Source: Nostocoides jenkinsii Ben 74
GTDB lineage: Bacteria > Actinomycetota > Actinomycetes > Actinomycetales > Dermatophilaceae
Direction of reading: 5' to 3'
NCBI RefSeq assembly: GCF_001046875.1
Contig: NZ_HF571038.1
Coordinates: 70,344-134,343 of the forward strand
DNA: 64,000 bases
Below the pieces are notes generated by a model that ran no database searches, was not told the DNA's origin, and saw only the letters and a program-made list of their open reading frames with translations. This document shows, piece after piece, positions 37 through 5,454 of this stretch. Within the stretch, counting starts at the first letter, position 1. The number at the start of each line of letters is the position of its first letter. The translations under genes were made by a program, and so were the position numbers.

Positions 37-549
37 ATGGACCCGACCAGTTCCATGAAACCACCTGGCTCGATGAACATGACGACCCCCCGCGACCCTG
101 AGCACCTCGTCGCCGCGGTCCACGAGCGGCTGCGTGCCCGCGGGGAGCGGATGACCAGCCAACGCCGGGCCGTCTTGCACGCGATGGCGACCACCACCGG
201 GCACTTGAGCGCCGACGAAGTCTTCGTCCTCGTCGCCGCTGGCGAGCCCGCGGGGCGAGCGCGCGGCATACATCAAGCCAGCGTTTATCGCACTCTCGAG
301 GCGCTCAGCCACCTCGGCATCGTCCAGCACATTCACCTGGGTCACGGGGCCACCGCATACCATTTGATCGACGACGCGCAGGCGCACCCGCACGCGCAAT
401 GCCGGGTCTGCGGGGTCGTGGTCGACCTCCCGGTCGACGTGCTCGATGCCGTCGCCACCCAGCTCGCCGCGGCCGACGGATTCCGACTCGACGCGGCCCA
501 TGCCGCCCTGTCGGGCACCTGTTCCACCTGTCTGAAGGAGACCTCGTGA
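37..549 (+). CDS. Fur-family transcriptional regulator
   Basis: This is a metal-dependent winged-helix repressor of the Fur superfamily. The N-terminal half has the winged-helix DNA-binding region (TSQRRAVLHAM, then SVYRTLEALSHLGIV). The C-terminal half has the dimerisation domain with the HAQCRVC and CSTC pairs that bind the structural zinc. The metal sensed (iron, zinc, or peroxide through iron) cannot be told from the sequence. The start is uncertain: in-frame ATGs lie at 37, 55, 73 and 79, none has a clear ribosome binding site, and the frame is open to the left edge. Sequence similar to other family members begins near 79. The stop overlaps the GTG start of the glycogen debranching gene (GTGA), so the two are probably translated together. 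Confidence 0.9.
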   Translation: MDPTSSMKPPGSMNMTTPRDPEHLVAAVHERLRARGERMTSQRRAVLHAMATTTGHLSADEVFVLVAAGEPAGRARGIHQASVYRTLEALSHLGIVQHIHLGHGATAYHLIDDAQAHPHAQCRVCGVVVDLPVDVLDAVATQLAAADGFRLDAAHAALSGTCSTCLKETS

Positions 550-3077
550 CGGCAGCCGCCCTCACTGCCATGCCGACCCCCGACCGCCGCGACGCCTGGG
601 ACAAGGCCGCCTGGCCACTCGGCGCGCACTACGACGCGCAGACGTCCTCGACCACCTTCGCAGTCGCCGCGCCAGAGGCAACCCGCGTCCTGCTGGAGTT
701 GTATGCCGCGCCCACCGGCCGCGACGCCCTCACCGACGTCGATCTCGTCCGGGACAACGACGGCATCTGGCGCGGCCGGGTGACCGGGGTAGGCCCGGGG
801 GCGCACTACGGCTACCGCGTCTGGGGGCCGGGCTGGGATGTCGACAAGGAGTGGACCCGCGGCAACTCGGCCGCCGGTTTCGTCGCCGACCTCGGCCCGC
901 AGGGGCAGCGGTTCAACCCCAACAAGGTCCTCACCGACCCTTATGCGCGCGAGATCTCGCACGCCCCGTCCAGCCCACTGATCACCGACGCCGGCGCCGA
1001 CGCGGGGATCTTCGGCTGGGGGCCGCGCGACTACCGCGGCCGGGCCCTGCGCGAGTGGGACACCGGCCAGTTCGCGCCGAAGGCCATCGTCATCGACGAT
1101 GACACGAGCCCCGGGACGAAGCCGGCGATCCCGCCGGAGTCGAGCGCGATCTACGAGGCGCACATCCGCAATCTGAGCCTCCACCCCTCGGCGGGGGCAC
1201 TGCGCGCTCACCTTGCCGACCTGCCCGGGTTCGGCGATGTCTTGGACGTTCCCGAGAACCTCCGAGGGACGTATGCCGGGGCGGCCTACCTCGCGCCATA
1301 CCTCAAGGCGTTGGGGTTCACCACGATCGAACTCCTGCCCGTGCATGAGTCGAGCGGATCGGAACTCAACACGTCCGGTTCGTCGAACCACTGGGCCTAT
1401 ATGACCCTCGGGTTCTTCGCCCCGAACCGGCAGTATGCGGCCGACAAGTCCCCCGGCGGGCCGACGCGCGAGTTCAAGGAGATGGTGCGGGCCTTCCACG
1501 AGGAGGGACTGGAGGTCTACCTCGACGTCGTCTACAACCACACCGGCGAGGGCGGCAACTGGGGCGATCGCGACACGGTGGGCTTCACCTCGTTCGGTGG
1601 GTTCGCGACGACGGATTATTACGTGCTGACCGACGACGGGGTGCTCGTGGACGGCGCCACCGGCTGCGGCAATCAGACGAATATGTCGAGCATCGTCACG
1701 CGGGCTCTGGTGGTGCACTCGTTGGCCTACTGGAGCGACGAGATGGGCGTCGACGGCTTCCGCTTTGACCTCGCGCCGGTGCTCGGTCGACGCCCGGAAG
1801 CTCAGGCGCGCAGCGACTGGAGCGGGCAGCAGCGGTTCTATCAGGATCATCCGTTGCTCATCGCGATCCGCGAGATGGCGCAGGCCCGTGACATCGAGGT
1901 CATCGCCGAGGCGTGGGACTTGTGGGGCTATGAGGTCGGCAACTTCCCGGACGGTTGGGCGGAGTGGAACGGCCGGTTCCGCGACGGCATTCGCCGCTTC
2001 GGCAAGGGCGACGGTAATACCGGTGCCTTCCTCGAAATGATGAATGGCGACTATCGCAATTTCGCCGATCAGGGCGGGCCCCAGCGCTCGATCAACTTCG
2101 TCACCGCGCACGACGGCTTTTGCCTGCTCGACCTCGTGGCCTATGACCAGAAGAACAACGGCGGCGCGTGGCCGTTCGGCCCTTCCGATGGCGGGAGCGA
2201 CAGCAACGACTCCTGGGGCTCCGGCGGCGACCCGGCGCTGATCCGGCAGCGGCTGCGCAACTTTTGGACCCTGCTCTTCCTCGCGCGCGGCGTGCCGATG
2301 GTGTGCTCCGGCGATGAGTTCGGCCGCACGCAGAACGGCAACAACAACCCCTACAACCTCAACACCGTCGGTATGTGGAACAACTGGGCCGCGCTCGCGA
2401 CCTCGTCGCCGACGGCGATTCCGGTCGACCCGGGCCGCCCAGACCTGGCGTATCGCGACGCCTTCGGCCGCGCCGCCGGCCCGGCGCAGGTGAACCCGCA
2501 GGTCGTCTTCTCGGCCTACCTCGCTCGGCTGCGCCGGGATCACCCCGGCCTGCGGCAGCGGACGTATGGCGATGCCGTCCTCGGCGGCGGCGACGTCAGC
2601 TATGTGTTTTTCACTCCGGGAGAGGCGAATTCGCCTCGCGAGGGCGATCGTGCGCTGCGCCTGTGGATCGACGGCTCGGGGGTTGGCGCCTCGGACCTGC
2701 TGGTGCTGATCAATATGGCCGATCACCCGGTGACGTTCGCGGTCCCGCAGGGCCCGGAGACGGTCGCGTGGCGCCGGATCATCGACACCTCCGCGACCTT
2801 CGAAGCCGGTTTCAATTGCTGGTCCGTCGCCGCCGGGGATGTGATCGTCGGGACGTATGGCGCGGCCCCCTGGTCCATCGTCGTGCTCGCCGAAGGCGCC
2901 CCGGGCTCGTCGGGCTCCCCCGGATCGGGTCCGGCGGCACCACCGGACCCGGCTTCGGGGAAGGGGAAGGGCGCCAACACCGGCCCGGCCAAGCCACCAG
3001 CCACCGATGTGGTGAGCCAGGTGACGGACTTGTTGGTCGAGTCGGTGACGGGCTGGTTCAAGCGCCGCAAGCGCTGA
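546..3077 (+). CDS. glgX: glycogen debranching enzyme (GH13 isoamylase type)
   Basis: The enzyme hydrolyses alpha-1,6 branch points of glycogen limit dextrins in the cytoplasm. An N-terminal beta-sandwich (CBM48-like) is followed by a GH13 barrel. The nucleophile Asp lies in DGFRFDLAPVLGR (about residue 405), the acid/base Glu in VIAEAWD (about 453), and the transition-state Asp in FVTAHDGF (about 520). The GTG start at 546 is chosen because GAAGGAG lies five bases upstream and the codon overlaps the Fur stop. At 843 residues it is longer than the usual 660-720. The extra length is a Gly/Pro/Ser-rich linker and a basic tail ending WFKRRKR. Coupling to a Fur regulator is unusual for a glycogen gene. 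Confidence 0.95.
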   Translation: MTAAALTAMPTPDRRDAWDKAAWPLGAHYDAQTSSTTFAVAAPEATRVLLELYAAPTGRDALTDVDLVRDNDGIWRGRVTGVGPGAHYGYRVWGPGWDVDKEWTRGNSAAGFVADLGPQGQRFNPNKVLTDPYAREISHAPSSPLITDAGADAGIFGWGPRDYRGRALREWDTGQFAPKAIVIDDDTSPGTKPAIPPESSAIYEAHIRNLSLHPSAGALRAHLADLPGFGDVLDVPENLRGTYAGAAYLAPYLKALGFTTIELLPVHESSGSELNTSGSSNHWAYMTLGFFAPNRQYAADKSPGGPTREFKEMVRAFHEEGLEVYLDVVYNHTGEGGNWGDRDTVGFTSFGGFATTDYYVLTDDGVLVDGATGCGNQTNMSSIVTRALVVHSLAYWSDEMGVDGFRFDLAPVLGRRPEAQARSDWSGQQRFYQDHPLLIAIREMAQARDIEVIAEAWDLWGYEVGNFPDGWAEWNGRFRDGIRRFGKGDGNTGAFLEMMNGDYRNFADQGGPQRSINFVTAHDGFCLLDLVAYDQKNNGGAWPFGPSDGGSDSNDSWGSGGDPALIRQRLRNFWTLLFLARGVPMVCSGDEFGRTQNGNNNPYNLNTVGMWNNWAALATSSPTAIPVDPGRPDLAYRDAFGRAAGPAQVNPQVVFSAYLARLRRDHPGLRQRTYGDAVLGGGDVSYVFFTPGEANSPREGDRALRLWIDGSGVGASDLLVLINMADHPVTFAVPQGPETVAWRRIIDTSATFEAGFNCWSVAAGDVIVGTYGAAPWSIVVLAEGAPGSSGSPGSGPAAPPDPASGKGKGANTGPAKPPATDVVSQVTDLLVESVTGWFKRRKR

Positions 3078-3114: not shown

Positions 3115-3225
3115 CTGGTGCTAGGTTGGCCGGGCGTCGAGCAGGGAAAGTCCGGTGAGATCCCGGCGCTGACCCGCAACGGTGACCGCTACGGCGGCGA
3201 GCCCGAATGCCTGTGCGGCGCAGTC
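3115..3225 (+). ncRNA. cobalamin (B12) riboswitch
   Basis: The leader contains the conserved core of the cobalamin aptamer in order: GGGAAAGTCCGGTGAGATCC, then CGGCGCTGACCCGCAACGGT, then a GAGCCCGAATGCCTG segment. The boundaries are approximate because the outer P1 helix was judged by eye. It lies between glgX and the secreted protein at 3277, about 50 bases before that start, so it should repress that gene when adenosylcobalamin is plentiful. The downstream ribosome binding site (GGAGGAAGGA, 3261-3270) can pair in a short hairpin with CTCC at 3271-3274, which suggests control of translation. Confidence 0.9.
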
Positions 3226-3276
3226 CGGTTGCACCCATTCGATTCCCCGCCGAGGTATGCGGAGGAAGGACTCCCC

Positions 3277-4347
3277 ATGATCATCACTCGTTCCCGTCGT
3301 GCCCTCGTGGCCCTCAGCGCCACGGCCCTGTCCGGGGCACTGTCCGGAATGCTCGTCTCGCCCGCTGCGGCACACGCCGACACGTCAACCACCGCCGGGG
3401 ATGTGGCCCCGGCCGCCTCGGCCGGCGACCGCGCCGCCGCACAGCACGCCGCCGCCTGGCTCGGCTGGCAATTCGTCGAGAAGAGTCACTTGCAGACGGA
3501 GTTCGACGGCACGGCATACGACGATGCGGGCTTGACCCTCGACGCCGTGCTCGCCTTCGCCGCAGCCAAGAGCAACGCGGCACGCTCGGGAGCCGCCCTG
3601 AACTGGCTGTCCGACTCGACGCGACTGGCGGGCTACATCGGGGACGGGACGACCGAGTCGTATGCCGGTGCCCACGCGAAGTTGGCGCTGGCGTTGCAGG
3701 TGAGCGGGCGCGATGCCGCGTCGTTCGGCGGTCGCAATGTCGTCTCCGAGTTGGCCGGCCTGCAGGCCTCGAGTGGCCGGCTGAGCGACACGTCGCAGTG
3801 GGGCGACTACAGCAACGCCTTCGGCCAGAGCCTGGGGACGATTGCGCTGGTGCGCGCGGGCCAGACGAAGCCGGCGAACCGCGCCGCCGCCTACCTGGCC
3901 AGCCAGGCATGTGCGGACGGCGGAGTCCCGATCGCGTTCGAGCAGGGCGCGTGCACGTCCGACGCCGACGCGACGGCATTGGCGGTGCAGGCGTTCGCCG
4001 CGACGGGGCGCGGTGCTGCGGCCGCCAGGGCGGCAACCTGGTTGCGCGGCAAGGCAATTCCGGCGGCCAACACCAACTCGGCGGGTCTCGCGGGTGCCGC
4101 GCTGGTTGTCGCCGGGCGACCGAACCTCGCCACCGCGGCGGGGTTGCGCACCTTCATCCGGGGCAAGCAGCAGACCTGCGACGCCCCGGCCGGGCGGCGT
4201 GGTGCGATCGCGTATGCCGCGGGCCCCTTCGATCGTGGCACCGCCGTGCGGGCGACCACCCAGGCGATCCTCGGACTGACCTCCGCAAATCTCGCGACGC
4301 TCTCGGCGACCGGTTCCACTCCCGGCGCCCCGGCGCTGACCTGCTGA
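3277..4347 (+). CDS. B12-regulated secreted alpha/alpha-toroid protein, possible cobalamin binder
   Basis: This 356-residue protein has a Sec signal peptide (basic start, hydrophobic stretch, Ala-rich cleavage site near residue 34). The mature part is made of repeated helical segments such as AAAWLGWQF, YAGAHAKLALAL and RAATWLRG, typical of the prenyltransferase/squalene-cyclase toroid. The same fold forms the alpha domain of animal intrinsic factor and transcobalamin. Four cysteines (QACADGG, GACTSD, QTCDAP and the terminal LTC) could form two disulfides. No membrane anchor is seen, so it should be exported free. The ATG has the strong site GGAGGAAGGA upstream. Because it is the only gene under the riboswitch, a role in capturing cobalamin or a precursor outside the membrane is inferred. 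Enzymatic cyclase motifs were not seen. Confidence 0.75.
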   Translation: MIITRSRRALVALSATALSGALSGMLVSPAAAHADTSTTAGDVAPAASAGDRAAAQHAAAWLGWQFVEKSHLQTEFDGTAYDDAGLTLDAVLAFAAAKSNAARSGAALNWLSDSTRLAGYIGDGTTESYAGAHAKLALALQVSGRDAASFGGRNVVSELAGLQASSGRLSDTSQWGDYSNAFGQSLGTIALVRAGQTKPANRAAAYLASQACADGGVPIAFEQGACTSDADATALAVQAFAATGRGAAAARAATWLRGKAIPAANTNSAGLAGAALVVAGRPNLATAAGLRTFIRGKQQTCDAPAGRRGAIAYAAGPFDRGTAVRATTQAILGLTSANLATLSATGSTPGAPALTC

Positions 4348-4369
4348 GGCGGCCGCGCACCATACGGTG

Positions 4370-4587
4370 GTGAGGCTTTCCCGCCGTGGTGAGGCTTTCC
4401 GCGGAGCCCGTGAGGCTTTACCACCGTGGTGAGGCTTTCCGCGGGGCCCGTGAGGCTTTCGTGCTGTGGTGAGGCGTTATAGCGCCTCACCACAGCACAA
4501 AGCCCTCACCAACCCGCACAAAAGCCTCACGACTGGACAAACCCCTCACGACCGCACGAAAGCCTCACGACCGCACAAACCCCTCAC
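4370..4587. repeat. inverted array of twelve GTGAGGCTTT-type repeats
   Basis: Six copies of GTGAGGCTTT or one-base variants (starting at 4370, 4389, 4410, 4429, 4450 and 4469) alternate 19 and 21 bases apart. They are followed by six reverse-complement copies at similar spacing up to 4587. The centre is a perfect 16-base inverted repeat, GTGCTGTGGTGAGGCG, with loop TTATAG (4461-4498). The array separates two convergent genes and its last units encode the C-terminus of the dioxygenase-like gene. It may act as a two-way terminator or be an expanded intergenic repeat. Confidence 0.9.
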
Positions 4588-5454
4588 GACCCGGGGCCGA
4601 CGGCGTCAGCAACACCGGGTCCAGCCGAACCGCATCCAGCACCACCGGGTTCAGCGGGGAAGCCGCCACATCGCCGGGGGCGCAGCCGGGCAGCCAACGC
4701 TCCAGATCCCCCGCCGCGTGCGCCCCCGGGCGCTCGACGACGCGCTCGCCATCGGCATACCAAATCACCGTCATCACCGCCCGCATCCGGTCGGTGCCAT
4801 TGGCCAGGGCCCGGTGCAGCGTCCAGCCCCCGTGGAAAGAGGCGTCCCCGAGCGCGAGGCTGGCGGGCTCGGACACCGGAAACCGTTCCCCCAGAACGCC
4901 ATCCACCACCTGCGCAGCGAAGAACGACTCCGACGCCGCCGAGATCACCTCCTCCGACAACGACCCGACCGCATTCGTGCCCGACGCGAACTGCAGGGTG
5001 CCCATCGCCGGTTCCACCGTTTGCAGCGGGAGCCACATCGTGATGCAGCGCTCCCCGCGCAGCGGCCAGTAGCCCGCGTCCTGATGCCAGGGGGGATCCC
5101 GCCGCCCGGCTCCTTGAAGAGCGCCTGATCGTGGTAGAGCCGCACCCGATCCACCCCCAGCAGCGCCGCCGCGATCCCGGCGAAGCGCGGCGCCAGCACG
5201 AGCTCGGCGACCGTGCCGTCGACCTCCCACAGATTCATCGTCTGCAGGAACGCCTGGCTGTACAGGTCTCGCTGCGCCAACGGCCGCGATTCGGTTTTGT
5301 TGGCCACCACCGCCGCCTCGATCACCGGCGCGAACCGGGCCACCTCGTCCGCCTCGGCGACCCCTCGCAGGACGACGTGACCATCGCGGACGTATGCCGC
5401 GCGGGCGGCGGCGGACACGGCATACGGCTCGACGAATGCGGGGGCAGCGCTCAC
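4565..5454 (-). pseudogene. phytanoyl-CoA dioxygenase-like (PhyH) gene, frameshifted
   Basis: The two parts together look like an Fe(II)/2-oxoglutarate-dependent oxygenase of about 296 residues. The first part (GTG at 5454) runs through LFKEPGGGIPP. The second part begins at WHQDAGYWPL, which carries the HxD iron ligands, and goes on to GGWTLHRALANG, which carries the distal His. The reading frame breaks in a run of six G on the plus strand (5090-5095). One extra base, or two fewer, would restore it. The break is either a real inactivating mutation or a homopolymer sequencing error. The C-terminal codons lie inside the neighbouring repeat array. The substrate is unknown. Confidence 0.8.

Follow-up and report, generated by a model that had tools for sequence, protein, structure and literature searches.

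A cobalamin riboswitch ahead of a secreted toroid protein in Nostocoides jenkinsii: the probable alpha half of a split transcobalamin-like B12 binder

What is a cobalamin riboswitch doing ahead of a lone gene whose product is an exported protein built of helical toroid repeats? The question is raised by a locus of Nostocoides jenkinsii Ben 74, which was analysed within a stretch of 64,000 nucleotides (the window). The first-pass annotation of this stretch had read the locus as a riboswitch controlling a secreted toroid protein, a possible bacterial counterpart of intrinsic factor. The observation itself, a riboswitch followed by a gene for an exported toroid protein, is confirmed here, and the locus had been placed correctly to within a few bases (Table 1). 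In our reading the product is probably the alpha half, secreted and without an anchor, of a cobalamin binder that resembles transcobalamin but is split in two; it would work together with a beta protein and with the pair at an ECF transporter.

Table 1. Features of the window locus and of the fused relatives. Positions of the first five rows are those of the window; positions of the last row are those of the respective loci.
Feature	Position	Strand	Basis
5' leader, cobalamin riboswitch with expression platform	3125..3276	+	aligned with 19 family leaders; RF00174 match within
Cobalamin aptamer core, RF00174 model positions 45-169	3143..3212	+	27.8 bits, E 3.6e-5; genome-wide E 5.5e-5
P13-like hairpin CCGC-CGAGGTAT-GCGG, putatively regulatory	3247..3262	+	CCGY...RCGG kept in family leaders
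Shine-Dalgarno sequence GGAGGAAGG	3261..3269	+	sequence
Secreted soluble alpha/alpha-toroid protein, 356 aa, four conserved Cys; probable alpha half of a split transcobalamin-like binder	3277..4347	+	ORF, alignment, model, fold search, tree
Beta-alpha-alpha-TM fusions	L044 11302, L047 10280, L056 12476, L090 11841, L093 11208, L053 3272	L053 on (-)	

The reading frame of the window gene, at C1:73620-74687 of the genome, ends on Cys356. Only one hydrophobic segment, located at the N-terminus, was detected on the Kyte-Doolittle scale, and after residue 40 no run of 19 residues reaches 1.2 or more; the protein carries an N-terminal export signal and has neither a later membrane span nor a lipobox Cys. 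Cys 212, 226, 301 and 356 are invariant in a family alignment of 11 sequences, and the AlphaFold2 model is a helical toroid (pLDDT 87.7, pTM 0.84), so the exported toroid with four Cys described from the letters alone is borne out. A profile link to the eukaryotic cobalamin-binding family was not obtained, since the Pfam scan of the protein returned no family at E<=10, PF01122 included. The NCBIfam SCO2321 family NF053823 (equivalog) matches with 64.6 bits (E 7.4e-18) against a curated cut-off of 300 bits, which makes the window protein a relative of this family and not a member.

The description as a single gene is locally right, as no partner gene adjoins it within the window, and the genes around it show no sign of a B12 context. 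Its upstream neighbours are a glycogen-debranching type alpha-amylase gene and the gene of a Fur-family regulator (window 399-3077 and 37-549, respectively). On the 3' side of the window gene lies an array of GTGAGGCTTT units at a spacing of about 20 bases (window 4366-4591), in which direct units come first and inverted units follow, together forming a large imperfect palindrome. The genome has eleven sites with paired GTGAGGCTTT units (38 pattern matches), and six relatives have no such site; the array is a species-specific dispersed repeat.

One further alpha member was identified in the genome, at C1:980959. Like the window protein it matches NF053823; its tail is rich in Ser and Thr, and a membrane span lies at the C-terminus (anchored alpha). 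Its operon runs in the order anchored alpha, soluble beta, anchored beta, EcfT/CbiQ, double EcfA (ECF_ATPase, CbiO) and ECF S component. The soluble beta gene (C1:982476-982901) is thus part of the ECF operon, and its soluble alpha counterpart, the window gene, is unlinked to it. The best NCBIfam match of the S component is a folate family, below threshold, and a cobalamin specificity was not identified.

Both beta proteins, which are small and exported, match the SCO2322 family NF040672 weakly (29.5 bits against a curated cut-off of 85). The soluble beta was modelled with a pLDDT of 84.8, and a Foldseek search of the PDB with this model placed transcobalamin at all of ranks 1-10 (probability 0.97-1.00), with the probability falling to 0.41 at rank 11. 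Among these ten is 5np4, the isolated human TC beta domain with cyanocobalamin (TM 0.61 by target). The E-values are only about 1e-2, and the strength of this predicted likeness lies in the unanimity of the top ten and not in the E-values. A DUF4430 search of the genome and Pfam and PDB-sequence searches with the beta protein gave no match; therefore, the kinship of beta to transcobalamin is visible by structure only. The window protein, for its part, has an alpha domain with no beta domain in the same chain, so it is not a counterpart of intrinsic factor as a whole. What stands of that comparison is the toroid fold, the riboswitch, the export and a family that occurs in an ECF operon beside a beta protein.

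Is there a need for outside B12 in this organism? No match to CbiC or CobS was found in the genome (98.9% complete), and six B12-binding domains are present, which makes it most likely that the genome is dependent on outside cobalamin. A second RF00174 match of the genome, at C1:3012085, has gpsA on one side and on the other the opening codons of an alpha-like gene, which then runs into a 100-N gap (L117 2086-2532). The other part of the anchored alpha gene lies, together with the operon, behind another 100-N gap at C1:0.98 Mb (L016 7853-7960, C1:980852). In two congeners gpsA is found upstream of the anchored alpha, and in genome G002 a riboswitch scoring above the RF00174 cut-off is situated between the two genes (L013). 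A scaffold misjoin is likely, being the simplest reading of a start and an operon that are about 2 Mb apart, and with it both cobalamin riboswitches found in the genome would serve alpha genes. The riboswitch at C1:3012085 had also been considered as an orphan before a transposase; this was dropped, as the first codons of a gap-cut alpha-type gene follow it.

We infer cobalamin as the ligand of the soluble pair. It is possible but unlikely that the soluble alpha, alone or with beta, has as its ligand a different corrinoid or a product of B12 breakdown such as cobinamide, or that it starves competitors of B12. A cobalamin riboswitch and an ECF context would fit any corrinoid, and the soluble class is also found in further genera, Streptomyces included, the check for B12 synthesis having covered this genome alone. 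However, incomplete precursors would be of little use to a genome without CbiC and CobS, and the simplest use for co-regulated twins is delivery to the anchored pair.

A scan of a species-genome collection yielded 80 loci, nearly all from actinomycetes, and of 297 genomes sampled from the class, 44 have relatives of the window protein. Two kinds of alpha were distinguished: in the soluble kind, to which the window protein belongs, the chain stops no more than a few residues after the last Cys, and the anchored kind carries a membrane tail; the beta proteins also comprise soluble and anchored kinds, and the assignment was made by hydropathy of the last 75 residues. Set composition was counted for the 47 loci whose retrieved stretch has a complete ECF set. 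Anchored and soluble alpha together with anchored and soluble beta make up 21 of these, anchored alpha with anchored beta another 21, and the other 5 loci are mixed or cut. Among neighbouring genes, a soluble beta comes after a soluble alpha in 22 cases and an anchored beta after an anchored alpha in 51, while an anchored beta comes after a soluble alpha in 4; anchored alpha precedes soluble beta in 10 cases, in 8 of which the next gene is an anchored beta, as in this genus.

A soluble alpha and two beta genes are present in all four genomes of this genus. Other genomes of the same family (G004, G010, G012 and G022) have one anchored alpha and one beta each, with departures in G013 (two anchored alphas and two betas) and G011 (no alpha match, three betas). 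On the trees the soluble class shows 5 state changes for alpha against 25.7 in shuffles, and 6 for beta against 31.6, which indicates that the soluble kind is mostly inherited and not re-invented. At six loci of Streptomyces, Kitasatospora and Dactylosporangium (Table 1) one beta, two alphas and a membrane span are joined in a single chain, and from these cases alpha and beta can be regarded as natural fusion partners.

In this genus the genes of soluble alpha and soluble beta lie far apart, and they are paired by co-occurrence only. This arrangement bears on a reading in which the window protein is an accessory of the anchored receptor complex, serving for instance as a structural cap or a surplus alpha subunit, and has no ligand of its own. 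The lack of an adjoining beta gene in this genus, where soluble alpha is unlinked, would agree with such a role, as would the fact that toroids can be scaffolds between proteins. Soluble alpha and soluble beta occur together, however, and in other families the alpha gene is often the immediate upstream neighbour of the beta gene (the 22 cases above); we regard an accessory role as improbable.

The riboswitch was located by a 601-base search (Table 1). Its score is below the Rfam gathering score for RF00174 (31.5 bits), and for this reason a default Rfam scan of the window listed nothing; the whole 3.81 Mb genome gives only one other match with E<=1. RF00174 scores above the gathering score were obtained at the same place for the orthologs in three congeneric genomes (L004 41.4, L019 41.2 and L017 39.4 bits), and the aptamer that had been proposed ahead of the gene is thereby upheld. 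Twenty leaders could be aligned through the riboswitch core (GGGAA, CCGGTG..CCGG, CCCGCAAC and AGCCCGAATGCCTG), and in this alignment the P4-P6 pairs and the CCCGCAAC- and AGCCCGAATGCCTG-type boxes are present and the core is invariant. Within the core, most leaders of the soluble class have CCCGCAACGGT, whereas most of those of the anchored class have CCCGCAACCGT (leaders L033-L093 versus L081-L108).

On the 3' side of the aptamer lies the hairpin, whose consensus pairs occupy columns 151-154/164-167 of the alignment. The first two G of the Shine-Dalgarno sequence are within its 3' arm, with the ATG at 3277, and the same overlap was observed in the congeners L032 and L043. To judge from the sequence, a translational OFF switch would be the natural reading of this overlap. 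The gene might instead be constitutive and its leader a decayed, non-functional riboswitch, as a score under the cut-off could indicate; the plain thermodynamic fold of the leader, no better than that of shuffles (z 0.24), goes the same way and is uninformative. Decay is less probable still than an accessory role of the protein, given that the invariant core residues are kept in the window leader, that the congeners score above the cut-off and that members of the genus retain a hairpin which overlaps the ribosome site.

When the window alpha model was compared with the PDB by Foldseek, toroids of all kinds were recovered, namely AprG, squalene-hopene cyclases, transcobalamin and prenyltransferases. 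Rat transcobalamin (8ixt) appears at rank 9 with an E-value of 9.3e-5 and is not the best toroid match, and terpene cyclases and AprG have equal or better scores. The fold is thus indeed the one seen in the alpha domain of animal cobalamin carriers, and it is common to cyclases, AprG, farnesyltransferase and complement as well; with matches of all these kinds, the fold alone is no proof of a B12 carrier. A secreted class II terpene cyclase or prenyltransferase-like enzyme, which the toroid repeats, the fold matches to cyclases and the profile matches to squalene-type cyclases (drimenyl diphosphate synthase 9.8e-12, squalene-hopene cyclase 2.2e-7) might suggest, is barely credible and was dropped as the identity of the window protein, because the significant matches cover repeat segments only (314-485 of drimenyl diphosphate synthase, outside the region of D303), because the catalytic DXDD motif, which the first-pass annotation would have expected intact in such an enzyme, is absent from the window protein and from all 48 soluble-class sequences examined, and because the protein is a single exported toroid of 356 amino acids whose family context is ECF uptake under cobalamin riboswitches.

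For the window protein as the secreted alpha half of a split cobalamin binder, the following course of events can be proposed. At low cobalamin both alpha transcripts would be translated and the window protein would be exported. Outside the cell it would pair with the small secreted beta protein of the ECF operon, and the two may hold the corrinoid between them, in the manner of the alpha and beta domains of transcobalamin. Anchored alpha and anchored beta would form a receptor over the ECF transporter; the loaded soluble pair might deliver to, or exchange with, this anchored pair, and the transporter would import the vitamin into a cell apparently unable to make B12. When cellular cobalamin is high, the leader hairpin would close over the ribosome site and production would stop.

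The analysis suggests that bacteria of this kind send out a free two-part B12 catcher. For the wider proposition, that many actinomycetes export a free two-chain B12 carrier which is controlled by a riboswitch and received by an anchored twin pair on an ECF transporter, we see the chances as about even. B12 exchange shapes microbial communities, and extracellular B12 capture by Gram-positive environmental bacteria is poorly known. If the proposal is true, a diffusible B12 binder under riboswitch control would be the protein counterpart of a siderophore, and sharing, cheating and piracy would become testable; bacteria would also have, for a vitamin, a complete system of carrier and receptor whose carrier could be shared or stolen. 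The unnamed SCO2321/SCO2322 families would gain a testable function, and the split alpha and beta chains together with their natural fusions bear on the origin of the two-domain B12 carriers of animals.

Several known systems can be compared with the present one. SCO2321 and SCO2322 (NF053823 and NF040672), which alpha and beta match far below the curated cut-offs, are names without a function. BtuG and BtuH are lipid-anchored surface proteins of Gram-negative bacteria and have other folds. The resemblance to BtuG/BtuH of Bacteroides consists in extracellular B12 capture ahead of a transporter (PMC6143338). ECF-CbrT is an ECF-type B12 importer of a B12 auxotroph and demonstrates that ECF transporters can import B12; as described, it comes without extracellular alpha/beta proteins (PMC5997447).

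Closer to our proposal, the available part of Burroughs et al. (2007, PMC1796856) describes a transcobalamin-type beta-grasp domain in bacteria, with toroid fusions in Firmicutes, with CbiO/CbiQ operons and with B12 synthesis missing, predicts the toroid/beta-grasp proteins to be B12 scavengers and proposes a transfer of the fused form to animals. The clade is listed there for low-GC Gram-positives, planctomycetes and some euryarchaea, and in the same part actinobacteria are mentioned for ComEA only (PMC1796856). The SLBB proteins of low-GC Gram-positives are similar in combining a beta-grasp domain with a toroid, in being secreted or anchored and in having CbiO/CbiQ operons, whereas the toroid examples given in that part are single Firmicutes chains, and paired soluble and anchored split sets are not reported in it (PMC1796856). 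The literature searched, outside which most subscription journals lie, contained no paper on the function of SCO2321/SCO2322 or on a secreted split pair. B12 scavenging by toroid/beta-grasp proteins had thus already been predicted, and the split, doubled and partly secreted form appears, provisionally, to be new.

The likeness to transcobalamin, intrinsic factor and haptocorrin of animals extends over the alpha/alpha toroid fold class, the ten best structural matches of the partner beta, secretion and a presumed role in carrying cobalamin to a receptor. The animal carriers consist of one chain, whereas the bacterial alpha and beta are two chains with no sequence-profile match to them and with a riboswitch ahead; and where the animal carriers meet an animal surface receptor, the presumed receptor here is the anchored alpha/beta pair with its ECF transporter.
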